NCBI GenBank assembly: GCA_963969365.1
Contig: OZ017746.1
Span: 4,030,001 to 4,094,000 of the forward strand
DNA: 64,000 bases
DNA from: Asterochloris sp. CNOR1
Taxonomy: Eukaryota > Chlorophyta > Trebouxiophyceae > Trebouxiales > Trebouxiaceae
Direction of reading: 5' to 3'
The notes under the pieces were generated by a model. That model did not search any database and was not told the DNA's origin. It saw nothing but the letters and a program-made list of their open reading frames with translations. The position numbers were made by a program, and so were the translations under genes. The first letter of the stretch is position 1. Every line of letters starts with the position of its first letter. Below are positions 1 through 64,000 of this stretch, in pieces.

Positions 1-3000
1 GCCTGGCTGGAACGTACTTCCTTCTTCAAGGTGCCCCGCTCGCACCAGGACGAAGTTGCAGATCAGTGCGGGAAGTTGTTCGAGCAGGTAGGCATCTCTT
101 TAGGCACAAGGGCAGACGCAGCTTGCGGGCAAAGCCTGTAGGGGGCCTACAGCGGGAAGCAGCAATTGCGCAGATGTGTTGCGGCAAGTGGCAGAAGGAA
201 CTTGTGTGAGCACAAGGGCAGGACTCCCTCAGCAAGGGGTGCAAGGTAAGCTGAGTTTGCAGGCGCCTGGCTGGCTCTGGGCAGGTGGGTACAGGCGGGC
301 TGCTCCAGCCGAGTGCAGCACGGATTGGGTAGGCAGGGAGTGCCGCCAAGCACTTGCCTCAAGGAAGCTGCTCAAGCAGGTGAGCAGACGTGCAGAGGCA
401 GCTGTGCAGGAGTTCGTTGGGCAAGCACAGGTTCATCTGGGAAGGCAGTCTACATTGCCAGGTGCACCGCCCTCCTACTGCTGCCTCGAGTGACAGATGC
501 TGTGTGCTGCCGGCTGGTAGGTTGTCCGATGTTGTTCGCTTGCCAATCCCTGCATGCACAGAGCCACTGCTGTACATGATGGCTGTTGTCAGGCGCCCCA
601 GCAGTCGTGGGATGCTGCCAGAGTTGCAGTGGGCCCAATGTCAAAAGTGGCGTCAAGGGCTGTGGCTGAGTGCCAAAGCTTTCTGGTCTCTGTGATTGCC
701 GCTCTTGCCAGGGCAAGGGTGGCCCCTGATCTGGGTCACATGAACACAGCTGACCTCCCCCCAGCGCAGCAGCTGGTGTCCCTACATGATTCAGGGTTGC
801 CCAGCACAAATTGGGCACAAGGGCACCACTTGACCTGAACAAAACTCACACCCCACTGCAGTTGATCGACGAGCTGCTGCCCATGGTGGAGGGCGCCCCC
901 AACCTGGGGGGCCACAACAGGACAGGGGAGTCCATGAAGGCCATCAAGGCGCGCACCAAGCCGCACCAGGGGGACAGTGGGATCCAGGGCAATCAGCGTG
1001 GCAGCGGTGGCCAGCAGGGAGGGCCTGCCACGCCCATGATGGACCCCAGCAGCCTGAACGTCAATTACTACACCAGTGAGTGCACACCAGTCACCTGTGT
1101 TCGGCTCTTTTGCATCTTGCGCGAGGTTTTGCATTTCTTGCCTCGCATACAAGGTATTCCAGAAAGTCCATACTGCACCTTTGATATCGATGATACTTGC
1201 GGCAACTTGCACTGTTGAAGTCCAGAGGCCATGCAACGGGGCGCATGTGTCTCCTCAGGTACATTGGCTCCATCTGCATGCAGCTATCAGAACTGTGCCC
1301 CATGCAAGCCTGCCTTGCAGCGAAGCCTTGGCAGGCCTCCTGGCTGGCACCCTGATGGGTGCGTACCTTGCCTCACGCAAGCCTACCACTACAGAGGTGC
1401 CCACAGCATCTGGCCAGGCCTGCAGGCAGTGCTCCCCATGGTTGCTGGTGCTGGGGATGTGGCCATAGTTGCTGTTGATTGCTAGTGTTGGGTACTTCTG
1501 ACCAGCACAGGCTGAAAGAGTCACATGAACCCTGCGGATGCGGCCAAGCTGCCTGCTTGCTTGCATGGGCAGCAGCATCAAGTCTGTAAGCCGCCTGCAC
1601 TGACACCTGCACATGCCTCTGCCGCCAACTGCCCCGCCACAGGCATGCAGATTGTGGACCAAGCAAGGCCCCCTGCCCCCTCGCCCTCCACAGCTGACGC
1701 ATGCACACATTCCTCTGCAGCCCTGGACCCTGCCACGGGCATGCAGATCTCGCTGCCCATGACGATGAACCCAGATGGCTCCTACAGCCTGCCACCTGGA
1801 GGAATGATGGCAGACCCTAGCCAGCCGCCGCAACCCTACCTGCCACCCTATGCACAGGCGCAGGCTGCCACAGAGGAGGGTGGGGAGGGCACCCAGTCTC
1901 AGCCAGATGCAGGCAAGCTGAGCTTACAGTCAGCAAAGGGACTCTGCGGGTGAAGCCAGCGGGCACAGAAGCAGTCAAGTCCCATCCACTGGGACTGCAG
2001 ACTGGTGCGTGCTGACAGCTGCTGTCTTTGACTGCAGGTGCCTCCAGCACTGCGTCACCAGGGGAGGGCCAGCACTCAGAGCCTGTACGAGAGGCAACTG
2101 GGGGCCAGCCATTGGAAACCCACGGTACTGAGGGGCAGCCTGCCAAGCCAGAGCAGGATGGTGCAGGCGTGCCCCCCTCGCTGTCCATACAGGACATGCA
2201 GATACATCAGCAGGCGCTGCAGGGGATGTGTGTGGCAATCGGACCTCATGGCGCGCCACCGATGCTGCTGCCACAGGGGACGCCCCTCCCAGGTGAGCAT
2301 GTCAACATAAATACTTACAACTATCCATCTGCCTTTGATTCTTCCTGGGTGGCCTCTTCTGAGCCTGCTGTGGCCAGCAAGCTGCAACATGCTGAAAGCA
2401 ATGGCCTGCACGTCTTGCTGTCCCTGAGGGTCAGAGTGAGGGAGCGACGTGCGCAGATCACCAAAGTCCGGGATTTGGGGACTGAAAGCGCTGGCTGGAG
2501 TCAGTCTTCATGTACCTTGAATTATGTCTCCTCTGAGACAATTGGAACAGGAGTTTTGCCTGTCTGGTCCCTGCGTGCAGTTGCCTATCAGCTTGTGTTG
2601 CGGCGAACGCTAACATTTCCGAGATGCAGGCAATGGTTGTAGAATCATGAGACATTGTGCCTCAAGTCCACTTCAAGTAGAGTGGAGCAGAAATGTGCTT
2701 GTGTGGCTGTTGTATGCAGATGGCTACCAGCTTGTGGAGGGGGCGAATCCAGCTGACTATGCACAGTTTGTGGCACCTATGGCTGGCATGGCGCCCCTGG
2801 GGGAGGACACGCCTGGAGACTTTGAGCTGCAGCCTGGCGCAGAGGGAGACCTGAAGAACCTCTCTAAGAATGGGAAGCGGAAGTGAGTATAGCCCAAAGC
2901 CCCATTGTTGCTTCTGCCAAGCTGATTGCATGCAGTGGTGGCATCTGGAGTCCCAAGGGTTCAGCTGTGCTTTGAACAGGGGTACAAGTCTGGCATGAGC

Positions 3001-6000
3001 GTGCATTTTGAAACATTCCCTGTAGACAGGTTGCATCAGCGGCTGTGGCAGCACCTCAGGCACTGAATTGATCTGGTGTGCTGCAGGCCCATTGGTAACA
3101 CAGGCCAAGGGCGGCGGCGGCTGAACGCGCGGGCAGCCCTGCGCGAGGCTGGCAAGTCCAAGCCGCGTCCAGAGACTGTCATGCAGCTGCAGGCGCACCA
3201 GCAGGCGCACCAGCAGACACAGAGGGCTGTCGATGTGGCGGCTCAGGCGCAGGCTGAAGACAGCGACATGGCCACCACGCGCAAGGAGAGCAGGTGGGCA
3301 TCCCTTGCTCTGAGTGCCAAGGGGTTGGTGGGCACCAGTTTCCTGTCTGTGGCAGACACAGTTGCAAGGCCAGCAGCTCAGGCACAGTCCAAAGACAGCA
3401 AGACTGGCTCTGCTGTGACAAGAGCAGGTGGGCGCCGTTGCTCTGCTTGTGGGGCACCTGCTATTTGTCTGGGGTTGGCTCTAGCTGCAAGAATAGCAAA
3501 TGAGGTGGTGGCCCAGGTGCCCATCAACAAGGGCAGCATGGCTCACAGCCATCTGCATCCTAGCCGTCGCCTCAGGATACTAAGTGGGCAGCCGTTCTAC
3601 CCTGGAAATGCTCTGTTCCACTGACATTTGTGCCCCACCTACCTGCAGCCGCCCAAAGACAATGGCGGGGCAGTACATCAGTACCTATGCGAGGATGCAG
3701 GCCAAGGGTGTACGTCAGCTGGTGGCGTCTGCAATCCCTGGCAGCGAGGCCTGGGCGCACGCTCAGCAGCAGGCAGCAGCCCTGGCTGCAGCCCAGGCGG
3801 AGCAGCAGGGCCTGGAGATGATGCAGGCGCAGGGTGAGGGTCATGCCTGGCTGCTTGCATGGCTGATGCAGAGGCCTGCGGGCAAGGCTCAGCAGCAGGC
3901 GGCAGCCCTGGAGCAATGGCCCCAATGATGGAGGCCTTGTGTATCAGGTCTGTCTAGGGCACATTCTCACAGTTCCCACAGGTCGCAACACAGGCAGAGT
4001 GCCCATCACTCCTCATCAACTGTGCAGCCTCTCCTGTGCTCAGCACAGCAGTGATCTTGTGGTGTTGCAGGCCTGGCCAAGATGCCAGCAGCCCCCTCAT
4101 CAGGTTGCCCATCAGTCTTTCAGCTCCCATGCTTCACTCCTGTGCCCTTCTTGACACTGCTGTTGTGATCCCGCAGGCCTGGCAGAGATGACAGCTGCCC
4201 ACAGCTCAGAGGGCATGCCAGGAACACTGTATGCCTACAGCCAGCCGCCGCTGCCGCACCAGCCAGCTCCCAAAAAGCAGCGGAAGAGCGCCAAGGTGGG
4301 TGCTGGTTGTTCGGTGGGCTGCCCTGGCCATGACACCTGGTTGGCAGCATGCTGCTGTCATTCCCTGCAAATTCATGCTGTGCTGAGCTGCCTCAGCCGC
4401 TTCTTTTCCTCAATGTGTGGTCCAGCAATGTTGGGCTGTCCATGGCGTTGGGGAAGGGGGGTGTCACCTGATGGGCGGCCATCTTGCCGTCACCTGTGGC
4501 AGCCGCCGCCCAATGGGCAATTGCGATGAGCCGGCTGTCCTGGCCGCTGTCGCTTTTGCTTGCCGGCTGCACCCAATGGGCTACGACAGCCATGTCGCCT
4601 ACCACGCAGCCTTACTGCTATCTGATGGCTGCCTTGCTGCGTTGGGCTGCTTGGGCCGCTGCCGCCAGATAGGCCACCCCTGGCTGCTGCCACCCAGTGG
4701 TGCACCTCATGGGCTGCCCTGGCTATGGTTACTACTTGGTGGACTAGCTGCTGTGACCCAATGGCTGTCATGGTGCCAGTGCTGTCACCTGATCGGCAGC
4801 TCTGCTGCTGCTGCAGGGCACAGGGCGGCCACGGGGAAGGCCTCCCAGCGCTGGCAAGCAGAATCTGGAGCTCCTTTCAGAAACGGCTGTCAGTGGCCGC
4901 AAGTGAGCACTTGCCCCTTGGCGCTGGTTGGAGGAACCGTTTGCAGCTGGCCCCACCAGTAGTCAGCTGCCTGGCTGCACTCTGAAGCAAGTGGGGCTGC
5001 CAAGTGCTTGTCTATTTGTGCTGGGCTCCTCATGCGGGGTCATATCCCATGTGTGGCGCCGCATCTCAGGCAGAGTCTCCACTCAAGTATCCCTGCCTGC
5101 AGAACAAAGACTTACATGCACTGCTTGAGCAGCCCTGTCAGGCCTGCAGGCTTTGCTAGAGGCCTCATTTAGCTCTGGTTCCTGCCGCCTGTATATAAAG
5201 ATGCAAAGCACCAAGTCGCACAGCGTCAAGAAGCCCTCTGGTGGCAGCATCAGTCTGAGGCGCTGACAAAGCAGCTGTGCCTGCAGAATAAAGCGCCCCA
5301 AGCACATGGAGGAGTACGAGGAGCAGGACATAGATGATGAGGACTATGAGGAGCCGGCTGCAGCCAAGAGGAAGCGCACCAGTCGGGGCAGGGCGTGTCA
5401 GCCGCTGCACCAGCACCAGCAGCAGCTGGAGGCAGCGGTGCACCAGCAGTCGCCTGAGGGGTACATGCCGGACCCGGGCGCCTACAGCAGTGTGCCGGGT
5501 GAGCGAGTGGCGTCTGGTTTGCTGCGAACAGGCTTTTGAGTAAGCGAGTGCTCAGCAGTTGCCTGAGGGGTACATGCTGTGGGCCCTGGCGCCTACAGCA
5601 GTGTGCCAAGTGAGTGGGTGGCGTCTGGTTGGCTGCAGGCGGGCTTCGCGTAAGGGAAGGCACCAGGTGAGTCAAGAGTGGTGTCCATGGGCACATGCTG
5701 AACCAGCAGTACACCGTCAGTTGCCTGAGGGGCATGTGCCGTACGATGGCCCTTACAGCACTGCGCCAGGTGAGTGTGCGGCATATGATTTGCTGCAAAG
5801 TGGCTGGGTGCTAGGTGACTGCGCAACTTGCTGCCTGCAAGTGGAAGCTTTTTTGAAGGCTGCCTGCCGACAACGGCAGACTGGTGTCGCAGGGCCATAT
5901 GCCAGAGACGACGGCGCTGCAGCAGCCATTGCCCGGGGCCCTGCAGCAGTGTGCCAGGTGAGTACCCTGCCTCAGCACCTTCTCTCATTGTTCGGCTGTG

Positions 6001-7458: not shown

Positions 7459-8029
7459 TCAAACCGACCCATTTGTCGAGTGTCCTGTGCTTGTCATGCT
7501 CATGTCAGACAGAAACAGTGTGCAGTCCCACCTCCTGCATATGTGTGAAAAGCCCTGTCAAATCGACAACACTGCATTCTGAATGCATACTGTGTCAGCA
7601 GATGTGTATCTGTTGCCCCATACTGTCTGAAGAGGCTTCAAAACTTCCAGAGGAGGGGTGCAGTGGCAGCCAGCTCAGCCGATGAGCTCACTTCCAAAGT
7701 GTAAACTGATGACTGGTGTCAATCTGAGTGGGCATGGCAACCTGGGCTGGCCCAAAATCAGACTGAATGAGTATGAAATGGTCAGGGGGAGAGGGCCGGC
7801 ATACACTTGTCTGAATGGCCTGCATGTGTTCTAGTCCTCAGTGAGCAACAGTGGGGCAGGGTCGTTGCCTTAGAGCTAGTGCTGGGCAATTCCTTATTGT
7901 GGGAAGCAACTGGTACAGTCAAACAAGCTACCCGAGTGGCCGCTGGGCCTGTAAAAGCTGCTGCAGGCCATGAAGGGAACCACAGAGCCTGTCACAGCTG
8001 CTGGGTGAGCGCAGCGTGTTGCCAGCAGG
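7459..8029. other. Convergent 3' intergenic region
   Basis: This lies between the stop of the AT-hook gene (+) and the stop of the kinase gene (-). It holds the 3' untranslated regions. I see no coding signal, RNA gene or repeat in it beyond the TGTAA signal at 7700. Confidence 0.6.
7700..7704 (+). terminator. Probable poly(A) signal TGTAA
   Basis: TGTAA, the usual chlorophyte polyadenylation signal, lies 242 bases after the stop of the AT-hook gene. The motif is short, so chance occurrence is possible. Confidence 0.4.
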
Positions 8030-11000
8030 CTACTTGAGCATCCACAGGGCCTGCGACAGCTGCTGGGTCCGGGCCAGGCAGAACGCAGTCAGGTCTGTGG
8101 CCCACTGGTGCACAGGTGCTGCCTGCTGTGGTGGCACCTGGCACAAGCTGTCAACCAGCCACGCCACCACACCCAGGCTCTCAGCAGGGTCCAGGCCACA
8201 GAGAGCGTCCCGCAGCTGCACCTGCAGGCAGCGGGGTTTGTGTGTGGCCTCAATGCACACTCAGAGATGCACCCCTGCTGCACGGGGCGCCCTTGTGACC
8301 CAATGTACCTGCCACAGCAATCAAGAGGGCTGAGACACTCTGCCCTTGCTGAGCCAGGTGCACAATCAGGGCCGCCAGGCGTAGGGTTGTCCAGAAGCAA
8401 GCACGCTGCATGCAGTGTCATGTCAGGTCACAAGCTGGCATAGCTGCCGCTGTCGCTGCTGACCTCCGAGAGTCTGCCCTGCTGCAGGCAAGGTCCCTAC
8501 AAATCACGGCCGTCGAGTCCAGCCATGCAGCTGCCCGCCTTACCGCAGACTCAGACACGCGGCCCTGCTGCACGCGGTGCACCATGTGCTCCACTTCCTG
8601 CACAGCAGTGGCCACCTCTGGCAGCGGCACTGCCAGCGGTTGGGGTGAGCCCCTCAGGGCTGGGGCCAGGTTGCCTGAGCTGCTGTGCAGGAGCTGGGGA
8701 GCTGCAGCACTCTGGGAGCCATAGGGTGAGGGAAGCGGCACCCCTGCACAGCAGACACAGCACCCATTCAGCGTAACAGACAGCAGAAGAAGGCAGAAAA
8801 CAGCCTTGCAAGGGCTCTAGATGGGCTGTGCAGCAGCTGGCGAGTTGCCCTACGCTGCAGACCATGGCATGACATGTGTATGTGGGCAGGTCATACAGGG
8901 AGAGTGTGCCCCGCCCTGACAATGGTCGACCCAATCAAAAACTTGTCAGTGACCCTGCCAACTGTGGCAAACCATATTCTTAGCCTGCATAGCAGAGGCC
9001 TGCATAGCAGGGCCAGTGAGGCGTGGGCTTCATCAAGGCTTCTAAGAGGCAGTGAAGGAGCAGCCTGAGCTGACAGTTGTCACACTCTCTTGCCCTTAGG
9101 GTGAAGAGAAGCGGCGCCCCTGCTAGGCACCAGGAAGCCGCGTTGTTTGAGAGCCTGACAAGCGTGGAACAGCAGCAGAGCAGGTGTGCGACGCCTGATA
9201 AGGTGTAGTCTGCCACCACTCTAAGGAGGACCCATGTGGGCATTGCAGGCAGGCGAGGGCGAGTAAGCATCCAACTAGCAGCGGGTGGGTACGTCTTGAG
9301 TCTCTGCACTCTGCATGTCAGAGGTTGGCTTGCAGCAACGTAGAGGTCAGGGCAAGCAACCAGCAGGTCAGCGTAGCTGAGTTTCATCAACTGTCAATGA
9401 CAGATGACCAAGCAAGGTTTGCACACCTTCTTGGCCTGAGGCATCGTGCAGGCGGCTGCGCTTGTGGCCATTGACCTGTGAGGCATCACTCTCCTCGCTG
9501 CGGTAGCGCTTCTCGCCACGGCCTGCAGCCGAGTCAAAGGTTAGCACGGTATGGACTGCCCTGCAATGGGCATGCTATGCACCGATTGCAGGTACAGGGC
9601 CAGAGAAGGGAGGGGCCCAGGCAGTGAAGCAAAGTGAAAGCTCTGCAGCAGGTGCTCATAGCCCTGAACAATCCCCATGTGTGCCTCAAAGCTGCCAACC
9701 CAGCAGCCCCTTGCACAACATATTGGTATGGTGACCGGTTCAGTCACGAGTCGTCACAAGCTCCCCTCCCAGGCATGCCCAGCAACTGAGGCCAGACGCC
9801 ACAGCCCCAGCCACCTGACCTCACCAGCCAGTGAGTGCATGGTGGGCTTGGCCACTTAATGTACACCGCTGACATCTTCCTGCATCAGCTCTGCAATGGC
9901 CTTGTGCCTGGACCTGCTACATTGGGCAGAGTTGTTGTCCCGCCGGCTGGTTTAATCCTGCTGCATCAGGCGCCGTTGATGTGCGAGCTCTCGACTGACA
10001 CCTCACCCCAATCCACCTGTTCCAGCAGAGAGCTGCTTGCCCGTCAGCTGGTGCACCCCTGCTGCAGCCCGCGCTACTTCAGGTGCCAGCTCTGCAATAA
10101 CCTTGCGCCTGGACCGGCTACATTGGGAAGAGCTGCTCACCTGCCAGCTGGTGCAACCCCTGCTGCGCCAGGCGCCGCTTCATATGCTCTGCAGCCTGCC
10201 GTGCCAGCTCTCGGTTGGAGTCGGCCGTGGCAGGCGGCGTCTGGCCCCGCGCAGAGGCCCTCTGCTGCAGCAGGCACAACCAACTGTCAAAATGTGCCAC
10301 TTGCTCTGCAGACTGCGGCTGACTTCTTCCAGATCTTGCTTGCAGTGTGCCTCGACAGCAGCAACAGAAAAGCCGACATGGCAGAGGGAGCCCAGAGACT
10401 GGGAGCGTCAGGAAACTGGAGGTCACATCAGGGCCAAGTGATCTGAGGTCCAGGCATCCTACCTGATCTCGTGCCTGCTGCTGCCCCCGGCCAGCCTGCC
10501 GCTCCCCGCTGGCAGGTGCCAGGGAGGCGCCTACATCTCGCTGGGGCCGCTCTGAGCTGCCAGGCGGCTGCTGACCTGAGGGCGTTGCGCGAGGCGGGGC
10601 GGCAGGGGCGGCTGCAGAGCGCGGGGCAGCATCGTCGTCTGGGGAGGCGGGGGTATCTGGTACATCCTGCACAAACATGTGAGGCTGCATCACAATGAGC
10701 TTGTTCAATTGCGTAGGCAGTCCCTCCCAAGCTGAGCATGCTATCGAGGTCGAGCAGCAGGCTTGCTGTATGCACCACAAGTGCAGCCTGCAGCATGCAT
10801 GAGACAAGTCTGGCCTGACTGGAGTATGACTTGCACAGAGCATGGTGTGGGGTGCTTGATCTGCAGTGTTGGCCCGCCAAGTTGGGCTGTCCTCAGCAGG
10901 ACAAGTCATCAGAATGCTGCTTCTCAACAGCAGCAGCACCCAGCATGACACGTGTGATGCCGATGAGACCTGGCGATGCCGGAGGGGCCATGCTGCTTTG

Positions 11001-14000
11001 GCACGTGCTGCCCCTAAGGGGATGTCTGAAGGCTGCTGCTGCTGTGCTCATTCTCAACAATGGTATGGTGCAGCGGTGCAGCAACCCACCTGATGCTGGT
11101 GCGACAGAGCGATGCCAACAGGGGCAAGACTGCTTTGGCGCGTGCTGCCCTGGAGTTGCGGCTGCACGCGCGGCGCCAAGGGTTTGGGCTTGGCCTGCAG
11201 AGGGTCGTCTGGGATGCCCTGCAGACAGCACTGGGCTGCGTGGGCGAGCCTGCAGATGTGGCTGGTGGCGGCCGTGGCGCTTAACGCTCTGTGTCTGCAG
11301 CCTACGTCTTTGCAGACGGCTGCGGTGCTTGACGATCTGTGTCAGCAGCGCCCGTTTCTGCAGACGGCTGTGGTGCTTGACACTCTATGTCTGCAGCGCT
11401 CTGTGTCTGCAGCATCCGCGTTCGCAGGCTTTGGGCGCACAAGCACTGCCTGCACAGTTCTGAAAGCCGTTGTACGGCCTCTCAGCCTGCTGTGCCCCTT
11501 ACAATGACCCTTCTCAAGTGGGAGCCAGGTCAGAATGCCTCAGCTTGCTGTCCCCCCAACAAAATTTCTCGACACAGTGAGCAGCCATGCCGCAAAGCAT
11601 GCTCAGTCTTGGTTGTGAGACAGGCAGGTCTGGACCCAGCCAAGTAAGTGCTGCAGGGCAACAGCACGCGGAGAGCACAGCCCTTGCAATGTACAGACAT
11701 GTGCATGGCAGCCACATGATGGCTGCAGGTGCAATGCAGCTTGAGCGGGTGCAGGCAAGTATGAATGCAGGGTGCACCCGCTTGAGCTGCATTGCACCTG
11801 CAGGTGCAGGCAAGTACAAATGCAGGGTCGGCAGCGTTGAGGGATGCAGGCGGTAGGCAGGTGGAGGTGCAATATAGCTTTAGGGAGGTAGACATGGGCA
11901 GCCAGACAACTCAGTGATGTCAGCAGGAGGCACAGGTGGATCACCTCCAGCAGGGTCCTGAGGTTGTCATAGGCCGGCTCGTCCTTCACGCCCAGCTTCT
12001 GCAGCTGGAAAGAGATCTGGCGCAGGCCCTCTGCAGGAAAACAATGTTGTTTACAAGCCTGCCAGCTTCTGCAGCTGGAATATAATGTGGTGCAGCCCCT
12101 ATCCAGGGTGACACGCGGAGCGTCCTGCCAGTTGCTGCAGCTGGAGTAACTTGTGGTGCGGCCCCTGTGCGTGACATGTCAGCAGGACCTCAAAGGAAAG
12201 TTGAGTGGCCACAGCTGGCTTGCCTTGGCAGGAGGACCATGCAACTGCTGCACACCCTAGACTGTGACACGAGGGTCACAGCCACGGTGTGAGCGCTGTG
12301 GGGGCTTTGGATTGAAGCACCATGTTGGCCAAGTACAAAGGGTAACATGCGCCATGCAGGCCAGCTACCCACTGCCCACCCCCTCTGTCCTGACCCAATC
12401 TTGTGTTGGCTTCAAGCTGGCAATGAGCACTGCAGAAGCGTGCAAAGGTCAAGCACCAAGATTCACTGCTCGCCTCAACTCGGACTGGCAGTTGCTTTCA
12501 CGCTCTAACTCAACCTTGCGCCTGCCTTGCACCTCACTCATGCAGGTCTGCATGCTCGCGTCTCTGCTGCTGCTCACCTGGCAGCCTCACATTGGCAGTC
12601 AGCCACTGCGAGGGGTCCTCCAGTGCCATCTGCTTCTGCTTGAGGATGTGCTGCTTGCGCTGGGCGTCACTGACTCCCTCCTCGCGATCCCCCCGCCAGG
12701 TCAAGCCCCCATCGACCATCTCAACCAGCATGTAGAGCCAACTCCACAGGTCATCACGGGGCCCTGCACAAGGGCAGATGCAACAGTGAGCGTCTGTTGT
12801 GTTTAGCATCAAAAGCTACTACTAGTTTTGGCCTCTGCAAAGAGCTGCTTGGTGTGGTTTTGGCTCTTTTAGGTACATTGTGCAGACAACTTGACATGCC
12901 ATTGCGCAGCCCAGCAGGAAGCTGTGCAGCCCGTCTTAGCTGGCTGCATGTAGAGGGTGTTGTGGTGGCCACTGGGTGCTGCCTGCAGCCAGGTGCATGT
13001 GGGTGTATGTTGCCATGCAGGCTGAGCCAGCTCGCAGCTGCTCACACTGTCAGGGCGACACGAAAAAGGAGTGTTTTTCTCTAGCACTCTCCCTGTGTAG
13101 ACTGACTGGGCACAAACATCCATAGTGCATTGCTCACCTGGGTCATCCTCCCTGTGTGCAATTCAAGCAGCAGCAGATCTCAAATCTCTTACCCTGAGGC
13201 TTCTCTTTGTGCGCAATCCATCGCGGGGTCGCCTCAGCAGCAGCACTGGCCCTGGGCCTGCTTTCAGGCAGCACTGACAGGAGCGCTCACCCTGAGGCAC
13301 CTCCTTATGCGCATTCACAGAGGCGTAGGCTGAAGAGCCACGGAAGCCAACCTGTCCCTGCTGCTGCTGGGTGTCCAGAGAGAACTTCTTGGCCAGGCCA
13401 AAGTCGATCACTTTGAGCATCGCTGCAGCGCAGGAGCGCACTTTCAGGGATCTAGGCTGGCATGCAGGCATGACATGTGCTCAGATGCTGTGCATTTTCA
13501 ATCTCATGCAGCTCTCTGAAATGTATTCTACATCGCAACTGCAATGAAGGCAGCATTGCCTGTGGCAGTTCAGCCCCCCCTTACCCTCATCTGAGCCCAA
13601 GGTGCTGCACCACTGGGGAAACATGACAAAGTTGGCTGGCTTCACATCTCGGTGGATGAAGCCCAGCCGGTGCATGCCCTCCAGAGCATCCAGCATCTGC
13701 AGACCTGCATGAGCAGACAGCACTTTCAGGTCCTTCCTCAATGGTGTGGTTGGGAACATCAGTGTTGACCTAAAGGCTTGCCAGCTAGCCAGCAATGCTG
13801 GCCCGCACAGTCATGCTGCAGGCCTGCAACCTGATGACACGGCCGGGCAGACATGCACCTTCGTAAACTGCAGTGTGGTTTTCGGTGACTCAGCAGAGGA
13901 TGCTGCACATGCATGGGCCCTCCTGAGTGCTGCAATGACATAGGGGCACCCCTCAGCCAAAACAGGTCCCTGCCAACTTCAACCTGGCATCTGCTGCCTA

Positions 14001-15361
14001 ACCCCAAGCTTTTGTGTTGATGCCATCGACGGCGCCCATCAGCAGCAATTAGTGACCCAGCAATTCCCCTTCAACAAGCTACTGTGCAGTGCCCCTCATC
14101 AGCAAAGGCTGGGGCCACATACGGCCACAAGCCCCATTCTGAATGAGCCACGAACATGGTGAAAGTCATGCAACAATGGGCCCACGAAACCCATGACAGC
14201 AGCCAACAGCTAACGTGCCCCGCCCATCTACCATGCAGGACCCAGTGAGCTGCACCAAGATTCCAGGTGCTGCAACACCGATCCAGGCCCAGCCAGCGCC
14301 TGTGTTGCCACAGCTGCTGTGGCACACCCCCTGCCACCGTTACCAGTGCAGGGCTCCAGCGGGCGTGCCCCTACAACTGTGCTGTGCGCCACAAGCCATC
14401 TTCACACTGCCAAGTGATCAACCTTCCTATGCGTCTGGCCAGCTCCATGCACAGGCACCCAGACCCACAAGCTTCTTTGCCGCAGGCATCCAGCAGGGAT
14501 GCACCCGCAGCTGCCATGATGTGCCACCTGTACAAGACCAGGCGGCAGCCAGCTCCAGATGGCTTCCTTCTGTGCATGGCCATGCCCATGCACAAGCAAA
14601 CTCACCTGCGATCTTCATCAGGGCAGGGCTCCAGCGTGGTCGCCCCCGCAGCTCTGCCACATTCTGCCCCAGCAGCTCCATCACGATGAAGAATTTGCCG
14701 TCCTGGCTGGTGCCTGAGCCCTTGAGAGCGCACACCAGCTCACACGGCTGCAGCTCCTTGATGACCTGCAGCAATGCCTACTACTGCAGCGCTCTGAGGG
14801 TGCACTGGCCGACAAGTCAGCAGCATGCCCCCCAGGACGCACACTGAAGCTCAACCCTCAAGCAGTGAATAGCAACCTCATGGGGCTCCAGCTGGCTACC
14901 TAGCTGGCCGGGCCTGTAGAGAGAACGTCTGCCAGCCATCACCTGAAGCTCCTGCTGCAGAACGCTCTTCCCGCGGCTCTTGTCCACCTTCTCCTTGTCA
15001 ATCTTGAGAGCGTACTGCAGGGACATGGTACAACTGGGGCCTGAGCTCAGGGAGGGGAGCACCTGTACAGGGGCAAGATGCCATCTGCACTGCAGAGCTC
15101 TATGCCATGGTGAAGCTTTTCCGGGCAGCTGCCGTCTCAGCATCTCTTCGCAGTCAAAGTGCATTTGCATGCAAACAGAGCAAAGCTGCCAATGTGAGCA
15201 ATGCTGATTCCATGCACGTGTCAAGCCTTGGGAGAGCTTACCCGCACATCCTGGGGGCTGTTGGTGTCCCTGACTTCATAGACCTCTGCAGACCTGCCCT
15301 CTCCCAGTCGCCTGTGCACCTGATACTGATTAATCCGATCTCCACGTTGCAAAGCAGGCAT
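8030..15361 (-). CDS. CK1-superfamily Ser/Thr kinase, tau-tubulin-kinase-like
   Basis: Twelve exons join in phase on the minus strand: 15361-15242, 15014-14943, 14765-14606, 13704-13585, 13422-13291, 12763-12578, 12030-11945, 10666-10463, 10264-10141, 9522-9427, 8743-8544 and 8221-8030. They give 563 residues. The first seven exons (about 1-292) form the kinase domain: a degenerate glycine loop LGEGRSAEVYEV, lysine in YALKIDKE, catalytic loop FIHRDVKPANF, magnesium loop IDFGLAKKF, and GFRGSSAYASVNAHK in place of the APE motif, as in CK1/TTBK kinases; then DDLWSWLYMLVEMV. Order and spacing follow animal tau-tubulin kinases closely. The C-terminal half is Gln/Pro/Ser-rich, with an NLS-like GHKRSRLH, and ends in a helical segment (VQLRDALCG to ALWMLK). 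Known relatives phosphorylate tubulin, tau or ciliary-basal-body proteins; the substrate here is unknown. The start ATG sits 15 codons before the glycine-loop LGEG. Confidence 0.85.
9930..10219 (-). repeat. Three-copy donor echo at kinase exon 10264-10141
   Basis: The end of exon 10264-10141 and its donor (10131-10219) recur at about 10028-10092 and again at about 9930-9998. Offsets are 103 and 98 bases, in the direction of transcription. Shared blocks on the plus strand include AGCTGCT-CCGCC-type sequence, CAGCTGGTGCA and CCCCTGCTGC. Only the first copy, at the exon itself, keeps an intact frame and donor that fit the next exon. Confidence 0.65.
11288..11412. repeat. 48-bp tandem repeat in a kinase intron
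   Basis: Units beginning TCTGTGTCTGCAG start at 11288, 11336 (TCTGTGTCAGCAG) and 11384 (TCTATGTCTGCAG), exactly 48 bases apart, with a truncated further copy at about 11400. The middle part GCAGACGGCTG-GGTGCTTGAC is conserved. It lies in the intron between kinase exons 12030-11945 and 10666-10463. Confidence 0.75.
11723..11803. repeat. Near-perfect inverted repeat (hairpin) in a kinase intron
   Basis: The left arm 11723-11753 and right arm 11773-11803 are 31 bases each and complementary at 29 positions, around a 19-base loop. The arms begin and end with CTGCAGGTGCAATGCAGC and its complement. Total length is about 81 bases, similar in size to a small-RNA precursor. Because it is inverted, either strand could fold. 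Confidence 0.8.
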
Positions 15362-15822: not shown

Positions 15823-18776
15823 ATGCAACAACACTCCTGCAGGTATCCCGATGGGAGGGTGAGGCACATCCGCTACCCTGCCCCATCTGCTGAGCTTGAG
15901 CAGGACTCTGTGGACAGCCTAGACGCGGTTGACATAGCCCTCCTGTATGAGGACAACTGGCACCCAGACAGGTGTGGCACACTGCTGCGCATCAACTGCT
16001 CTGTGGAACACCTGCTTGATCAGGCAGTGCATCAGCTGCGTGCACAGTCAAGACTGGCCAGCCGTGCAGGGAAGTCGCTGTCTAGGCTTGGGGCATGACA
16101 GCCTGGAGCACATGAGGGGAGCCTTGCTCTGGGTACATTTGCAGGTGCTCTAAGTGCTCTGCACAGTGGTGTCGGCAAAATCTCACAAGCTCCGAGAACA
16201 CATGTCATGCCACAATCCATTGCTGATCTGCAGACGGGTCTCCCTTGACTGAGGCTTGCGTTTGTGAGATCACAGACCATGCACAACCAAATGCTGACCT
16301 GCAGCGGGGACAGCATTTAACTAGACCTGGCATTTGTGTGGCCTTGGATTCATGAGATTGCATACCATGCAGAACCCATTGCTGCCCCACAGTTGGGTCC
16401 CCTAACATTGTCCAGACCTGACATTATGCAGATGCCATGCCACAATTGCTTGCTGACCTGCAGTTGGGATACCATTGACTGGGCCTGGGATGTGCCCAGC
16501 AAGTGGGACCAGCAGCCGCGGCTCCTGGGGCAGTCGCCCGCAGGCAAGGCGATGCAGCAGCCTGTGGCGCAGCCCAGCACACAGCAGCTGCCCAAGGTGG
16601 GCTGCTGGACAATTTTGAAAAAAAGCCCCTCAGGCTGAGATGTGTGAGACCCCTGCCTGCAAAGACACTGGCAGCCTGCTGAGGGCTTGCCTCATCTCTG
16701 CATCAGCAGCACGGGCGGATCTGTATGCGGCATGTGTGGGTGACTTGATGGCCTGTCTCATGAGAAGCGTTCAGTGTCTGTAGCACTGCCCCTGAGATGG
16801 TCGTCCTTGGGGACGAGAGCTTGCAGAGACACTGTGGGGGTTCTCTGATTACAGTGCTTCGCTGTGTGCAGCGACGTGAGATTCCCAGCACGCCAGCTGC
16901 GCTGCTGAAGCAGCTCAACTCGGAGGGCTACCTGCAGGCTCAGGAGCAGCAGCGGCGGAGTGTCAGGGACAGCTACGAGGTGCCTGCCAGCAGGCAGCTG
17001 TGCATTGAACACTTGATGCATGGCGTCTTGCCGCAGCTGTGGGACTTTGCAGTACCCCTGCTCCATGTCCCGTGCTTCACGTCTGCAGCTCATTGCTGAA
17101 GGCGTACCAACTGCAGCCCAAGAGCACAGATCCACTGGGCTGGGCGCTGCCACTGTCCTGAAGCTTGGCAGCATGGCAGCATGCTGCTTAGGCTGTAGTG
17201 CTGCCTCCGAGCTGTTGCACAAAGATTATGGCAGACCTGAGGACTGCACTTTAGATATTCGCCACGCTCATGCAGCTCAGAAAGAAGCTGGGCCTGCAGG
17301 TGCATGAGGGCAGCCCCTGGGTGCAGTCGCGGACGGTGTATGTGCTGGTCATGGCCCAGCAGCCCTTGGAGCAGGCGCTAGTGTACAGCCAGCGCACAAG
17401 GGTGGGTTGGCGTGACATGGAGGACGAGATGACTAAGGTGAAACCCTTTTTGCGCACCAAGGGGATCCTAAAGGGCTGTCAACTGTTGTAAGGTTGAGGC
17501 TGCTTGCTGGGACACCCTGCTGTAGAGGGCCGCAGCATGTGAGGGGGTCGTTCTCTCCGCAGACTGTGTGGATTCTTGCTCAATCAGGGCGCAGATGCTG
17601 AACTCTCACGGACAAAATCCCCACTGCTGAGCAAGGCTTCCCTATTGTCTGTGTCAGCAATCAGGTGCCCATGAGGGCAGGCAGGCGGCACATATGTCTT
17701 CCTGCTGAGTTGAGGGCATCCCTCTGTCAGCCGCTGCTTTTGCTGAAGTCGTCATACTGCCAGCAGAAGCCAAGTTTTTGCTGCTGCACTGCGACTGAGA
17801 CGTCCCTGCCTGTCATGGCTGCGTCATTTCCCCCTTGTCCTAGGCTGCATACACCTGCTCAATGTCGTGCACTTCATTGCTGCATGCGGCTGCTGAAGCA
17901 GCCACCCCAGAATTTGCATGTGCTGGTTGACACGGTCAACTCGCTGTGGCCCCCGGCCCCCAGCTGCTCGAGCCATCGTGCGCGGATGTGTGCTTGCAGT
18001 GCCCTGAGTGGCCGACTTGCCGGCTTGGCTCCACTCACAACCGTCTTGACTGCAGTTGCTCAAGCGGCAGCGGCCTGATGGCAGCCCTGTCATCAAGGTG
18101 GATCAGCTCCTTGATGGCGTGGTTATGTTTGAGGATGCTGCAGATGCAGAGCGCTTTGGCAGCTTCCTGGAGGCAGACACCAGCAGAGAGGTGAGGCCTT
18201 ATGATCATCTGTTATGATCTCCAAAGCTGCATGCTGGAGTGAATGTGCATGGTCTGTGTTCCAGCGCTTCATGGGCCCATGCCTTGGCAATTGCAATGCT
18301 GGTTTGCACGCAGAGCTGATGTGTTGCACTTCTCCATTATTTCTTGCCCAGACATACAATGCTAGATTGCTTGCACAGAGGATTGATTGCAGTGCTTCAT
18401 ATGTTTCTGCCGAGGCACTTGCAGCACCTGTGCCGCCGGTACCCTGCACAGCCAGAGTGTATGTTCATGACCCACACATCCATTTCATCATGTTTCTGTG
18501 GCAATCCCAACGGGCCTACGGGCCTGTTTGGTTGCCTCATGTCCTGTTTTAGTCCACGGCTGCTCTGCAGCTGGGCATTTGCTGAACAGTCTGACTTTTG
18601 CTGACACCCCTGTGTATTTTGAGCAGGTGGCAGTGGTGGCTGTGGACTGCCACAGCATGTTCCGCAATGTCCAAGGCGCCAGAGGGGTGATGGTTCTGTT
18701 TCGGCAAGGGGCCAATCTGCCCATGCCTGCCCAGCTTGCAGTTGCTCTCAGGGGCCAGCAGTCCCTGGAGGACTAG
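15823..18776 (+). CDS. Conserved protein with tentative DUF3110-like C-terminus
   Basis: Six exons chain in phase: 15823-15971, 16464-16596, 16872-16979, 17276-17401, 18056-18190 and 18627-18776, giving 266 residues. The N-terminal exon reads YPDGRVRHIRYPAPSAELE; the second has WDTIDWAWDVPSKWDQQ. The last three exons contain RTVYVLVMAQQPLEQALVYS, then LLDGVVMFEDAADAERFGSF and LEADTSRE, then VAVVAVDCHSMFRNVQGARG. The pattern of a strand (VYVLV), an age-like FEDAADAERF helix and LEAD resembles the cyanobacterial/plastid DUF3110 family, whose biochemical role is unknown; this match is from memory and weak in the middle. The start is uncertain because an upstream exon may carry a plastid transit peptide. 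The stop is followed by TGTAA at 18804. Confidence 0.55.
16207..16490 (+). repeat. Three acceptor echoes before exon 16464-16596
   Basis: Four copies of a pattern CATGC-ACAA-C-TTGCTGACCTGCAG followed by about 40 related bases end their AG at 16233, 16304, 16392 and 16463, so spacings are 71, 88 and 71. The last is the real splice site: only it is followed by an open frame (WDTIDWAWDVPS) in phase with exon 15823-15971. Downstream parts of the copies also agree (TTGACTGAGGC-, TAGACCTGGC-, CAGACCTGAC-, TTGACTGGGCC-like). Confidence 0.8.
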
Positions 18777-43500: not shown

Positions 43501-46500
43501 AGGGCTTCCTGCCTAACAAGCGCCAGCAACTCAGTGGGGGCCTGGCTGCTCTGGAGATGGCACAGACCCTGCGCAATGTGGTGGGTCTGTGCATGACTCC
43601 AGAGCACATGACCGTGTCCATGTCTGTGTCCAGCTTTGTGGGGATTGATGAGTCTTGTGATGAAGAGATGTGTGCAATGTGGTGAGCACATGCATGACCC
43701 CATAGCACACATTTGTGCCACTTCGGGTTCATGGCTTTTCTAGGACTGCTGAGCCTGTCATGAACAATACATGTCCCGTATATTGGAGTGTCATGCAATG
43801 AAGGAAGCTGCCTTTGAGTTCAATGCTGCGCAGAGCTGCTAAGTCAGGCCAGGACTGCCGCTGTACCAGGCAAGCAGCAGCAAGCTACATACACAGACTC
43901 TTGGAGCACGATTGTCATTGCCACCCACAGGGCAGGTGGCAAGCCTTACCTCCCGCTGGCCTGCCAGGTGAAGCGGCAGCGAGCTGGCGCCCAGGCGGCG
44001 GTGGCAACAGCTGAGGTCTGGGACTGGCGTATCCTGAGCCTTCCATTGCCCTGCAGGTGAAGGACAGGCAGCAGCGAGGACCTGGCGCAAAGACTGCAGT
44101 GCAGACAGCTGGGGCCAGCGTTGGGGGTTGGGATGCAAAGCCACCCACGACATCTGCTGGCGGGTTCCATGAGTTCTGCTGGCGGGATGCCATGGACGTG
44201 GTGGTCCGGTGGCGCCAGCTGTCAGAGCCCAATGATCAGGTCAGCACTGATCAAGTGTCATGCAGAGGAGTGCAACAACCAAGATGTCCACCATCAGAGC
44301 CCAGCGACCAAGTCAGCAGGGTTCATTGGAATGCACCTCTTGTTGAGATGGCGTACCATTGCACTCCTCAACTGTATTGCAGCCACCGATTTTGGTGTTG
44401 TACAAGTGCTCCAAGCTCTTCCTGCAGTGACGTTGGGTGGCGATCCGCTCTCAGGCCAAATACCCAAAAATTAGTTGCAGCTACCTCTGTCAGGCTTGGA
44501 GGACACAGTGCACTGCTACCTGCAGGGGTCCTGTGGGCACCTTGTGGGAGCAACATGCCAGAAGCTGCTGGATAGTGGGTGATGTGCTTAGTCTGACATC
44601 TCCTCCCAGTGTACATCTCAATGAAAGAAGGGCTGGCCTGCAGGTGGTGCAGGATGGGCGCTGAGTACAGTGATACCCAGATGGTGACTCTGCCAGCTGA
44701 CCCTGGACCTGCCTGCAGGCAGTCAAGCTGTGTCTGCTGACCAAGGTGAGTGTTGAGACCAACCAGGCCTTAAGCAGGGGGGCCTCAACTCATATCACGG
44801 CAGCTGCCTGTGCAGGTGGTCTGAGTGCATCTGAACACTCAGCAGGGCTCTGCTCAGCTCCATGATCCCTGGCAGGGCGATGTATGAGAATGCCCCTCTG
44901 AGATCAACCCTCACTGCAGCCTGCAGGAAGTATGGGAGGACCTGCAACCCAGCATGGCTCTGCTCAGCTTCTTGCTCCCTGGCATGTCACACGTCTGAAC
45001 TTGCCGCGGTGAGCTGGCCACCCACTGCTGCCTGCAGGAAGTATGGGTGGACTTGCAACCCAGCAAGGCTCTGCTCAGCTTCTTGCTCCCTGGCATGTCA
45101 ATGTCTCACATTTCCCCTGTAAACTCACCACCCACTGCAGCGTGCAGGACATCTGGATGGACCTGCAACCTTGCAGGCTTCTAATCGGTGAGACACCCCA
45201 GGCGTGTCAACTTCTCAAAGCACCTCTCTGAGCTCGCCCCCTGCTGCTGCCTGCAGCACATGTTGGTGGACCTGCGACCCAGCAGGGATCCACTCAATGA
45301 GACCTTCCAGGCATGCCAATTTCTCAAAGCAGCCCTCAGAGCTGACTTGCAGCTACTGCCCCATAGGTGGTCTGGGTGGACCTGCTGACTAAGAAGGAGT
45401 TTGAGGCCGGGTTTGGCAGCCACACGCCCATCTTCTGTGGGCAGACCAAGTGTGTGCGCTACTACATGAACTTCGAGCGCGCGATGGCGGTGGTCAAGCA
45501 GTGTCTGGACCGCGATGGGCGTGCTTTCGACCAGCACAACAACCCTGGTAGGTTCTAGTGAGCAGTGCACAGCATCTGGCCAGCAAAATGATGTCTGGTG
45601 GATTGGCACCTGTGCTGCCTGAGGGGGCTGCAGACCTACTGTCAGTAAAGCTGTTAATCTGGCATTTTGTCGGAGCTCTTGGTGGGGGTATGGAGATGGG
45701 GGCACCAGCACTCAACTCTGTGAAGCGCCTGCAGCGGTTCAATCCCGTCAGGGCAGTACCGCACAACACCACAAGCTGCACACATGCCTTCTTGTGTAGG
45801 CCGCCAGCAGCAGTCCCCCTTAGCTGGCGACAACAGGCTGCCTTCTCATAGACCATCTCTGCATCACCTTGCCTTCGGCAGCCATCCTGGGTGACCTCTG
45901 CATGTGGCCTCTTCACAGGCCCTATCTTGCAATCGTCAGCATGTTCCTGTCTGCTGCAGTTTCCCTGACTGGCAACTGCAAATGCTGCCCCTTCTATGCT
46001 GACAAAACCCCCCTGCCTGCCAGCTCATACAACTCCTGCCTTGGGCAGAAGTGTATGCAACATCTCAGGCTTCTGTCGTCTGCAGTCCCCCTGGCTGGCG
46101 ACCACAAGCGAGCAGAGATCCAGTCAGTCAAGACGGCTGAGGATCTGTGGAAGGCCATTGGCAGGGACAGCTGGATCGTGGTGCCCATCGACAGCACGGC
46201 ACGTCCAGGTGGGCACTGTGGAAGCCCTGGGGGGGTCTTGCAGAGCCTCAGGAGCTGCACGGACATCTGCCTGCGTTGCCCTGCGCTGCAGGAGGGGCAA
46301 TCAGCAGCGCACAGAAGGGGAGCCATGGCTCCCTGTGCATGCGCCAAGCACAGCTCACTACTGAGGCTGTAGTGAGGCTGTAGGGCGAGGCCAGCAGCGG
46401 CAGAGCATGGGCTGGCACCACAGTCCTGCATGGTTGTGGTACTGACTGACAGAACCATGTCATGAAGGCGTCTCTCCAACGGCGGCTCTCCAACAGCTGG

Positions 46501-50831: not shown

Positions 50832-53332
50832 TCAGTCCAGCACGAATATCCTGGAGCGTACATCGGCCGTGACCCACTCAAACCCATCCAGCAGGCCAGC
50901 CCCCGATACTGCGCTGCAGGCTATCACGCGCCAGTGCCTGGTGCCCATAGCCTGCAGGTCAAGGGCCTGTTCTATTTGCTCAGCGGTCAGCGCTCCCTGG
51001 ATGTCCTGCTTGTTTGCAAATATGAGCAGGCTGGCCCCGGCCAGGCGCTCCTCCTTAAGCAGGCCGTGCAGCTCCTGACGGCAGTCCTGGAGGCGTTGGG
51101 TGTCGGCGCTGTCCACCACCCAGATCATGGCGTCCGTCTGCAGGCAAGCAGGGGAACAGCATTCGGTGCAGTCGTGAGGGTGCTGCGCCACCGCTAAAGC
51201 TCTCCTGCAGGCTCTGAGCATCTGCGCACGGGCATTCATGCCAAGAATCATGCTTCCATCTGCAGGCAGGTATGGGTAACCCCTTTGACACCAATGGGCT
51301 CCGAGAGTGTAGACCTGCAGGCACATGCTGTGCCTTAAGTCACTGCAGTTCTCTGCAGACAGACAGGGGAGCAGTACGAGGCTGCAGCAGACATAACCAT
51401 GTCCTGATACAGAGGGTGTCATTCTGCTGTTGCGGGGCGTCCCCACCATCTACCATTCTGATCATGGCATTTGTTGCACAGTAGCTGCACTGCCTTGCTG
51501 CAGAATCACCAATGCTGCCTGCACACCGCATCAACATCATCTGAGGCGTGAGGGGCCGAAGACGCTGCGCTTTCATCGGCAGAACCACTATGAGCAGGTC
51601 TGCTGCTGAAGTTGTGTCTGAATGCAGCAGGAGCAGTAGCAGCAGCGCAAGGGGCTTTGTTGCAGCGCCGCCAGCACCCCGGGTGGAGGAAATTGCGTGG
51701 AGCCCAGAAGGGTAAACCACATGGGACATGCCTGCACATCCTGCACGCCTCTCCCTGCTGCTGGAAGGCTGACGTGGCTGAGTTCTCTAAGTGTCCAGGC
51801 AGCAGAGCTGCAGCGCACTCTGAGCTTTGCCTGGGTCAGAGCGACACATGCCATAGTACCTGCTGCCCAGGCTTGCACAGACTGCGCCTGTCTCCCTCCT
51901 CACAACAGCAGCAAAAGGCTGCAGCTCTGAACTTTGCCTGGTTGAGAGCAACAAACGCCCAGGTACCTGCTGCCCAGGCTTGCACAGACTGCGCCTGTGC
52001 CCCTCCTCACAACAGCAGCAAGAGCCATGCTTTATGTAGAGACTGTTGCTGCAGGTGCTGCCATCCTGCCGCAGGGCATCAGGCAGCCCACGCTCTGTAG
52101 CGGCTCGGGTGGCTATCTGAGGGAGCAGCATCAGGCTGTGCGGGCCCCTGTAGTGTCTGGCCCCACCCTACAAGCTGGCCCTCACTGACAGCCGCTCACA
52201 CAGCAGTCACTGGCTGCAGGACATCTGCCACAATTTGTGGGCAGACTGGTGTGGCTCGAAGCTATGCTGACTGAACAGGAGCGCTGTATCTGATGAGCTA
52301 GCAGCAGCCTGCACGAAATGTTTCACTGCCAAGGCGGGGTGCTGCCATGCTGGCTCCACATCCAAGCAGCGACAGACCTGCCCACAACAGATTTGCAGGC
52401 TGGTTGCAGCCTGTCACAGCTGCCGGCATGTCACGACTCTGTTCATGCAATATCAGCAGCAGGCCAGAGGGCCACAACAGCCCTGCCTGGCATTGCTGAC
52501 TGAGCTCCTGGCGTTGCAAGTCAGCAGCAGACCTGCTCATAGTAGTTCCGCCAGTACGAGCGCAGCGTCTTCTGCCCCCCCACGTCCCAGATGTTGAGGC
52601 GCCCGTCGTGGAATTGCATGGTCTTGATGTTGAACCCCAGCGTGGGGCTGACCGTGCTGGTGTCCTCTCCGTTGATACGCTTCACGATGGTAGTCTTGCC
52701 TGCAGGGGTGCAGGTTTCTGTGGTCAGGTGCTGGCAGCTGGGCTCATATACCTGCAACTGCCCCTGTGGGGTATCGGCTGTGCCTATCCAGCCTGCCGTA
52801 GTAGTCTTGCCTGCCGGGGGATCAGGCTTCTGCAGCCAACTTCATGCAGCTGGAACTCGTGTAGCTGCAGCTGGACCTTTGGCCCAGCGATGATGCAGTT
52901 CAGCCTGTACTGCGCTGCGACAGTGGCGCCTGAAAGGCTTGGTTATGATGCTCCAGCCTGAGATGCATTGCAGCAGCGGTGCCTGTGGGCATGCTGTTGG
53001 GCTGCTGCGGCCTGAGGCCTGTGGGGCAGGTACTGGGTCAGGTGGTGCTGAGGTGCATATCTGTAGCTCTGCCTGTTGAGCAAGAACTGGGCAAGGACTG
53101 TGTTGTGCTGATGGTCAATGATTTGGGGGCTCCTGGAGTCCATTCTGTACCATCTGGTGCAGGCAGAGACTGCAGCTGTGCCTGCTCGATGTAGGCACTA
53201 CAGTGTGGAGATCAGCCTATAGTTTGTGTCTCCCAGGTCAGACAGCTTACCTGCATTGTCCAGCCCCACCATCAGGATGCGGATCTCCTTTTCTCTCCTC
53301 TTGACCTTCCTGATGATGGTGAGCAGGCCCAT
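50832..53332 (-). CDS. ARL2: ADP-ribosylation-factor-like GTPase ARL2
   Basis: Three exons, 53332-53251, 52699-52533 and 51137-50832, join in phase to 184 residues, exactly the usual ARL2 length. The protein starts [20 protein letters not shown]-box motifs are complete: GLDNAGKT (P-loop), the switch-I threonine within [16 protein letters not shown] (switch II), NKQD and SAVSG-type CSAVSG. Gly2 is present, but ARL2 proteins are typically not myristoylated. Known role: ARL2 cycles GTP with tubulin cofactors TBCC/TBCD/TBCE and binds PDE6D/BART, controlling tubulin folding and cargo release; the plant ortholog is TITAN5. The intron 52532-51138 is 1.4 kb and unusually structured, with inverted and direct copies of both flanking exons. 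Confidence 0.96.
51190..51485 (-). repeat. Two degenerate copies of the ARL2 third-exon start
   Basis: The real exon opens at 51137 with codons for [17 protein letters not shown] after CTGCAG. A copy at about 51425-51478 encodes [17 protein letters not shown], about 340 bases upstream. A weaker one at about 51200-51262 follows its own CTGCAG and aligns at the DNA level around CCTGCAGAYGGA-GC-ATGAT. Both sit on the same strand as the gene and carry no intact remainder of the exon. Confidence 0.7.
51547..51610 (+). repeat. Inverted copy of ARL2 second-exon end and its donor
   Basis: On the plus strand, opposite to the gene, GAAGACGCTGCGCT at 51558-51571 and ACTATGAGCAGGTCTGCTGC at 51587-51606 copy the end of exon 52699-52533 together with its GTCTGC donor. 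About 45 of 52 bases match. Because it is inverted, the pre-mRNA of this intron is complementary to the exon-2 donor region, about 0.9 kb away. Confidence 0.85.
51818..52025. repeat. Two-copy 106-bp tandem repeat in the ARL2 intron
   Basis: Units start CTCTGAGCTTTGCCTGG at 51818 and CTCTGAACTTTGCCTGG at 51924. Each contains CTGCTGCCCAGGCTTGCACA and CCTCCTCACAACAGCAGCAA, with about ten differences over 100 bases. Confidence 0.85.
52690..52860 (-). repeat. Acceptor echo of ARL2 exon 52699-52533
   Basis: On the minus strand the P-loop exon opens GCAAGACTACCATCG at 52699. GCAAGACTACTACGG, preceded by a CAG, starts at 52810, which is 111 bases upstream. The sequence around both (GCAGCTGG-CT, CAGG-TTCTG) is also repeated. 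Confidence 0.75.
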
Positions 53333-53373
53333 GCCGCCCAAGTGCCAAGATCAATGCTGCCAGGAATCACGCC

Positions 53374-58420: not shown

Positions 58421-58425
58421 TGTAA
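58421..58425 (+). terminator. Possible poly(A) signal of the Cys-rich gene
   Basis: TGTAA occurs about 200 bases after the stop codon. Short motif, modest support. Confidence 0.3.
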
Positions 58426-58594
58426 GTGACTGCCATACCAGCGGGCTGTGCCACCAAGCACTGATTACAGTAAGGTTGTGCTGCTCATGTTCAGCAGTGG
58501 CCCGCGTGTTCATGGACATCTTTCCTGCCATCCCAGACTTGTGTGTATTATTACTACAGCACATGAAACCCAGCTTATCCAGTCTGCAGCGCCA

Positions 58595-58599
58595 TTACA
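58595..58599 (-). terminator. Possible poly(A) signal of plastid SecY
   Basis: TTACA on the plus strand is TGTAA on the minus strand, 191 bases past the SecY stop. Confidence 0.35.
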
Positions 58600-58789
58600 G
58601 TTCACTGATCATTCAAGTGCTGAATTATGGCATGCATTGAGCACCAGAGGTGGAGCTCAAAGATTTTCATGCAAGCATCTGAGCTCAGCCGTGGAGTGAC
58701 AGCTCAGCCCATAAAATATCCTTAGGATCTCATGGACTTGCACAGGGTGTCCACCTTTCTTGCTTCGTTAATTTGTTCTGTCTGGCCAC

Positions 58790-63882: not shown

Positions 63883-64000
63883 CTGCAGCAGCACTTGACA
63901 AAGTGGACATGCAGTTATGGGCTAAATCACAGTAGAGGCAATAATTCACGGCACAACTTCTCCAGCGGCATCAGTAGTGTGGCCATGGGAAGCCAGCAGC

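Follow-up and report, generated by a model that had tools for sequence, protein, structure and literature searches.

Echoes of exon edges inside their own introns in the green alga Asterochloris sp. CNOR1, probably left by old local tandem duplications

The evolution of intron length is often ascribed to mobile elements or to small insertions and deletions. A stretch of 64,000 nucleotides (nt) from Asterochloris sp. CNOR1 (contig OZ017746.1, positions 4,030,001 to 4,094,000; hereafter the window, meaning this whole stretch of DNA) raises the question of whether introns also grow by copying their own surroundings. The original prediction, made from the letters alone, was that sequence spanning exon–intron junctions is repeated inside the adjoining introns of several unrelated genes. 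We ask here whether such junction echoes are real, by what process they arose, and when. The echoes are real and general beyond the window, and they are probably relics of old local tandem duplications that occurred throughout introns, the junction cases being the most visible.

The source genome comprises 56.4 megabases (Mb) in 21 contigs. The DNA analysed amounts to 324 kilobases (kb), made up of the window, 200 kb of adjoining sequence, and six 10-kb stretches on other contigs, and a gene finder self-trained on these 324 kb returned 35 gene models with 572 introns. We kept 336 of the introns, dropping those with a flanking exon shorter than 30 nt, with a weakly coding flanking exon, or with a length above 1500 nt. 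It should be noted that the self-trained models fuse neighbouring genes: 35 models in 324 kb compare with about 56 predicted from 173 genes per Mb in Asterochloris. In the exon-flank test, 50 nt of exon, with the bases nearest the splice site excluded, were aligned to the exon's own intron and to 200 samples of the same length from other introns. At the cut-off of p ≤ 0.01, about 3.3 junctions are expected to match on each side.

Matches to the own intron were observed for 34 of 331 donor junctions and 36 of 330 acceptor junctions, about ten times the expectation. In a strict subset, the counts were 25 of 195 and 27 of 195, respectively. The window contributed 15 of its 124 junctions (8/62 donor, 7/62 acceptor), in agreement with the claim that both sides are affected. 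Beyond it, 26 of 269 donor and 29 of 268 acceptor flanks matched, including 5/61 and 7/61 on the six other contigs. At least one echo junction is present in 25 of 33 gene models. Echoes occur on one side or more in 69 of the 336 introns, and on both sides in 1 of these 69. With reverse-complemented flanks as a control, the counts fell to 5/331 for donors and 0/330 for acceptors, and with exon sequence lying 50–100 nt off the junction, to 11/285 and 1/283. The frequency of echoes increases with intron length, as expected if every event lengthens the intron.

A scan of complete exon–intron–exon units revealed 133 direct repeats and 1 inverted repeat in the 336 units, with 86 units carrying a direct repeat, whereas five dinucleotide shuffles of the units gave 5, 2, 2, 2, and 1 direct repeats. 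Raw counts in 1.5-kb tiles over all 324 kb were 372 direct and 15 inverted. The spacing of the copies was 15–214 bases in 137 of 153 repeat diagonals, which are not independent within arrays (scan range 15–700), and was densest at 95–105; the range is thus wider than the 48–111 bases first reported. The median spacing of the best repeats is 143, and the median length of the repeat-bearing introns is 542. Detectable copies account for 11% of intron bases, and as old pairs inside introns are the first to be lost from view, this figure is a minimum. A significant local direct repeat is present in 24 of the window's 64 confident introns; the best repeat crosses or abuts a junction in 17 of them (8 donor, 9 acceptor), is internal in 5, and is of another kind in 2.

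The account that we favour is as follows. Tandem duplications, with units that mostly measure about 15 to 210 bases and peak near 100, would have occurred across introns, errors of repair or replication being the presumable source of the units. Where a unit crossed a donor or an acceptor, the outer copy would retain the exon and the working splice site, the outer site presumably being chosen by selection, and the inner copy would become added intron. The inner copy and its decoy splice site would then decay without clear selection. Purifying selection would hold the exon copy nearly unchanged, which would make the junction cases the easiest to see. The visible duplications would be mostly old, at about 0.2–0.3 substitutions per site per copy in simulations, so that most of the growth would fall in a past period. 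In its central points, namely intron growth by local duplication, units that cross junctions on either side, an outer copy running on into the exon, and decoy sites in the inner copies, this account bears out the original prediction.

The state of the decoys is informative in this respect. GT is present in 11 of 19 decoy donors, with GC in 2 more, and AG in 21 of 29 decoy acceptors; about 59% intact decoys are expected if both bases decay like codon positions 1 and 2 of the copies (0.766). Decoys have therefore not been purged, and those of acceptors are if anything better kept. Identity by codon position was 0.767 and 0.766 at positions 1 and 2 and 0.719 at position 3; a less alike third position is as expected with coding constraint on the outer copy. 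Purging of decoys by selection was also considered and rejected, as strong splice-like sites in introns have no clear sense/antisense bias (at a 25% cut-off, 209 vs. 246 for donors and 280 vs. 270 for acceptors).

Several results weigh against the favoured account, those on the placement of the repeats being given in the next paragraph. A cruder count in 2-kb chunks of the 264-kb block gave 184 direct and 53 inverted repeats, although it may count inverted pairs twice and include palindromes. The ratio of alignment length to spacing has a median of 0.45, and head-to-tail adjacency is not given case by case; the partial cover of the spacing may be explained by old decay. Local direct repeats numbered 0 in 26 predicted intergenic segments (12.7 kb, a small and gene-near sample), compared with 45 of 307 introns, contrary to what neutral duplication everywhere would predict. 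The positions of acceptor decoys are more alike than exon positions (0.862 vs. 0.756), perhaps owing to the common CTGCAG motif, which would aid detection. Selection keeping the decoys was rejected: it was not seen for donors, and the better-kept acceptor positions were ascribed to the common motif. Separately, in a count with the window included twice, repeats covered 257 bases out of 32,642 between genes, compared with 28,891 out of 274,086 within introns.

The best repeat crosses or abuts a junction in 57 of 77 classified introns, where uniform placement expects 35 (the proportion is 57/86 among all introns with repeats, 9 of which were classed as "other" and excluded), and junction crossing reaches 44 of 55 in the strict set. 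Junctions might therefore be preferred sites at which duplications are triggered by a splice motif or by a break linked to transcription, so that introns grow from their edges, as the original prediction also had it. When ages were mixed, or fixed at 0.10–0.25 substitutions per site per copy, simulations yielded a junction share of only 0.52–0.59 (p from 7e-5 to 0.004), and an earlier simulation gave 0.52–0.57 (p from 7e-5 to 0.0014). With neutral placement, only an age of 0.30 brought the share to 0.71 (p = 0.32), so that old age combined with exon conservation reproduces what is observed; exon conservation inflates the junction share by keeping such pairs detectable longer. When only intron bases were considered, the segment was copied elsewhere in the intron at 16 of 200 5′ edges and 12 of 200 3′ edges (8.0% and 6.0%), and at 16, 21, and 22 of 200 interior positions located at one third, half, and two thirds of the intron (8.0–11.0%). 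In the same 200 introns, 27 and 30 exon edges were matched; they stand out because the conserved exon keeps one copy. Because a segment at an edge can find partners in one direction only, a mild edge preference may be hidden behind these comparable rates. Edge-targeted growth, apparent at first from the 57 of 77, was thus weakened by the old-age simulation and by the intron-only test, and we regard it as unlikely.

It is much less probable that the inner copies serve as exons, alternative or mutually exclusive, which the gene models overlooked. The DDB1 donor echo at 28624–28653 is open and was called an exon by the gene finder, the 48-bp (base pair) array of the same gene is open by eye, and the coding score is positive for 13 of 45 inner copies. 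However, the reading frame is broken in 24 of the 45 pairs that contain 24 or more bases of exon origin, the inner copies have 12 stops in 685 codons (0.0175 per codon, compared with 0.0216 in random intron segments), and the spacing is a multiple of three in 11 of 48 cases. The comparison of stops and coding scores with true exons is partly circular, zero stops in true exons being built into the model. Judged by sequence, the inner copies are as a rule not working exons, and the alternative anticipated with the original prediction, that most echoes would prove to be ordinary exons, is not what was found. A further explanation is that the introns originated when an AGGT-bearing piece of exon was duplicated in tandem, the echoes being traces of this birth. 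Such intron gain is known from other eukaryotes (PMC3443670), but in-register similarity of at least 0.5 between donor and acceptor was found in 0 of 308 introns, with a mean of 0.357 vs. 0.354 in controls, and the median repeat spacing falls far from the median length of the repeat-bearing introns. As there is no in-register repeat, the introns are apparently older than the duplications, and this route, which the original prediction had invoked, is very improbable here. Least credible of all is insertion of a mobile element or of an introner family into the introns. A young dispersed repeat does exist in the genome (L009:9616–9965 and L026:1–350, 97% identity over 350 bp) and is perhaps a recent mobile element, but four probed introns or arrays were unique or nearly so in 56 Mb, dispersed matches numbered 8 in the 324 kb, and the copies contain the sequence of their own flanking exon. 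In the genome search, which skipped simple repeats and very common words, three of the four probes returned only self-matches. The fourth, the predicted DDB1 intron 21607–25288, had one inverted self-match and, beyond it, a single further match of 49 bp in the genome.

If old local duplication is the source of the echoes, the age structure of the copies is the unexpected part. Across the 324 kb, 97 non-redundant local repeats measured 60 bp or more, and not one of them had an identity of at least 85%; stricter scoring placed 3 of 66 at 85–90% and none at 90%. Under a simulated steady birth with ages of 0–0.3, about 30% lie above 85% identity, compared with 0 of 48 in the unit set. The scarcity of young copies depends on scoring, as default blastn returned 11 local matches at 85–97% identity (one of them a palindrome), the longest being 84 bp at 86.9%; in shorter cores, identity rose to 90% (52 bp) and 97% (34 bp). 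The simulated ages that fit the identities are 0.20–0.30 substitutions per site per copy, and 0.30 also fits the junction share. The presence of the young dispersed repeat described above indicates that recent duplicates as such can be found. Since constant birth and loss should not leave fewer young copies than old ones, either births became fewer or divergence is rapid early on in new copies. The missing young copies suggest a past pulse. Our tentative proposal, possible rather than probable, is a past episode in which the introns of most genes grew by local tandem duplication that has since almost stopped, for example through a change in a repair pathway or a return of effective selection against longer introns after a time of small population size; in a variant, new tandem copies would diverge unusually fast at first.

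Internal gene duplication across exon–intron boundaries, which Gao and Lynch reportedly described in 2009, resembles the present case in the direct copying of a boundary-containing segment and in the creation of additional splice sites. It differs in that here introns become longer and no new ones form, units are near 100 bases, 25 of 33 gene models are involved, and young copies are few. Minisatellite-like arrays are approached by a few multi-copy introns (period 48 in DDB1; 109–111 at 44840–45343), whereas most cases here are single diverged pairs, many of them with exon bases. In the accessible text of PMC3443670, tandem genomic duplication of AGGT exon segments is an established source of introns; it shares with our case local tandem duplication within genes and the copying of splice-like sites, and differs from it by the in-register donor/acceptor repeat that is lacking in all 308 introns. 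Introner elements, as far as the accessible text of PMC9860276 describes them, likewise shape introns genome-wide, whereas no family common to several introns was found at the four places probed here. Among the publications listed by literature searches on intron gain, growth, and duplication and on trebouxiophyte genomes, with incomplete coverage of subscription papers, no title or opening of an abstract describes widespread intron lengthening in a green alga through old duplications of local sequence.

The examples from the window are collected in Table 1. The GC content of the window is 0.55–0.61. The DDB1 gene model aligns with human DDB1 (E-value 7e-299), and for seven further protein segments Pfam returned a family in five (kinase, CDGSH, TPR, SecY, and Arf) and none for the two segments labelled AT-hook and DUF3110-like, so these two names are labels of the original prediction only; "SRFR1" for the TPR gene is likewise its label. 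Of the genes in which echoes had been predicted, the AT-hook, kinase, DUF3110-like, DDB1, and SRFR1-like models do have junction repeats. For the SecY and ARL2 parts, this did not hold in the same way: the three best window repeats are internal, with one weak acceptor match (intron 51138–52532, p = 0.010).

Table 1. Exon edges, their echoes, and related repeats in the window (positions counted from its first letter).
Feature	Positions	Strand	Details
AT-hook-labelled gene, exon	5287..5498	+	Predicted exon; last 47 nt and donor repeated in intron, 80/98 aligned
AT-hook, first inner echo of exon end and donor	5561..5657	+	Weaker copy to about 5879; spacings 109, 271
AT-hook donor echo, intron 3294–3648	3213..3505	+	Copies 3213–3382 and 3352–3505; 62%, spacing 139; p 0.005
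AT-hook acceptor echo, intron 2293–2719	2543..2747	+	69.7% identity, spacing 140
Kinase donor echo, intron 10667–11089	10955..11150	-	78.3% identity, spacing 137; p 0.005
Kinase donor echo, intron 12764–13290	13162..13338	-	67.9% identity, spacing 97; p 0.010
Kinase donor echo, intron 13705–14605	14348..14668	-	62.6%, spacing 143; p 0.005; 66/97 aligned; genome match to self only
DUF3110-like (label) acceptor echo, intron 15972–16463	16194..16494	+	64.6%, spacing 160; 51/68 across CTGCAG
DDB1 donor echo, intron 19850–20489	20285..20528	-	66.7% identity, spacing 174
DDB1 exon 27838–27879 with about four 48-bp copies of acceptor and first exon bases in preceding intron	27838..28057	-	Array 27867–28057, period 48, 4.1 copies
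DDB1 donor echo of exon 28826–28978, called exon by gene finder	28624..28653	-	21/24 bases as exon end, by eye; same intron as the 48-bp array
DDB1 intron echoing the exons on both sides	31609..32320	-	Donor p 0.010, acceptor p 0.005; alignments
SRFR1-like TPR gene, donor echo, intron 38769–39331	38730..38927	+	71.2%, spacing 139; p 0.005
SRFR1-like acceptor echo, intron 39445–40270	40112..40310	+	79.6%, spacing 151; p 0.005; 39/49 aligned
SRFR1-like donor echo, intron 42261–43057	42193..42363	+	72.1%, spacing 104; p 0.005; genome match to self only
SRFR1-like donor echo, intron 43581–44056	43570..43764	+	69.1%, spacing 101; acceptor echo in same intron, p 0.005
Array of about five 109–111 bp copies	44840..45343	+	Exon calls inside uncertain; genome match to self only
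Intron-internal tandem pair, intron 51138–52532	51799..52024	-	84.3% identity, spacing 107

Some further observations concern the same genes. The DDB1 acceptor array appears, by eye, to be open in frame, so that use of an inner acceptor would add 16 codons per unit. Among the inner copies, this array (27880–28057) is the foremost candidate for actual splicing. The predicted 3.7-kb DDB1 intron probed above contains imperfect repeats about 500 bases apart, and its inverted self-match has 74% identity over 173 bp. Scans of viral_contigs and genome_contigs with DDB1 found no relative. The CDGSH iron-sulfur zinc-finger segment at 36963–37736, fused to DDB1 in the model, probably represents a gene of its own next to DDB1. 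CTGCAG strongly predominates at acceptors (194 of 336 introns), and GC donors number 30 of 336, although the sharpness of these sites is perhaps overstated, as they were self-trained. A search of the window against Rfam gave no match. Exons of light-harvesting proteins are present (31 matches). A gene-sized tandem duplication was seen on one of the analysed stretches (L006, about 2093–4287 and 5607–7979), matching at 78% identity in one segment of 945 bp and at 71% in another of 1138 bp; the start of the gene model there looks like that of a short-chain dehydrogenase.

Overall, local duplication is detectable in 86 of the 336 introns examined here. Its echo copies can mislead gene prediction, as in the case of the DDB1 echo that was called an exon. 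For each junction-crossing event, the exon edge provides a conserved reference, and the rate and timing of intron growth are therefore measurable within one genome. If either the past pulse or the fast early divergence of new copies is true, the introns of this alga would be layered fossils of duplication, and the exon edges would be the preserved reference copies by which they may be dated.

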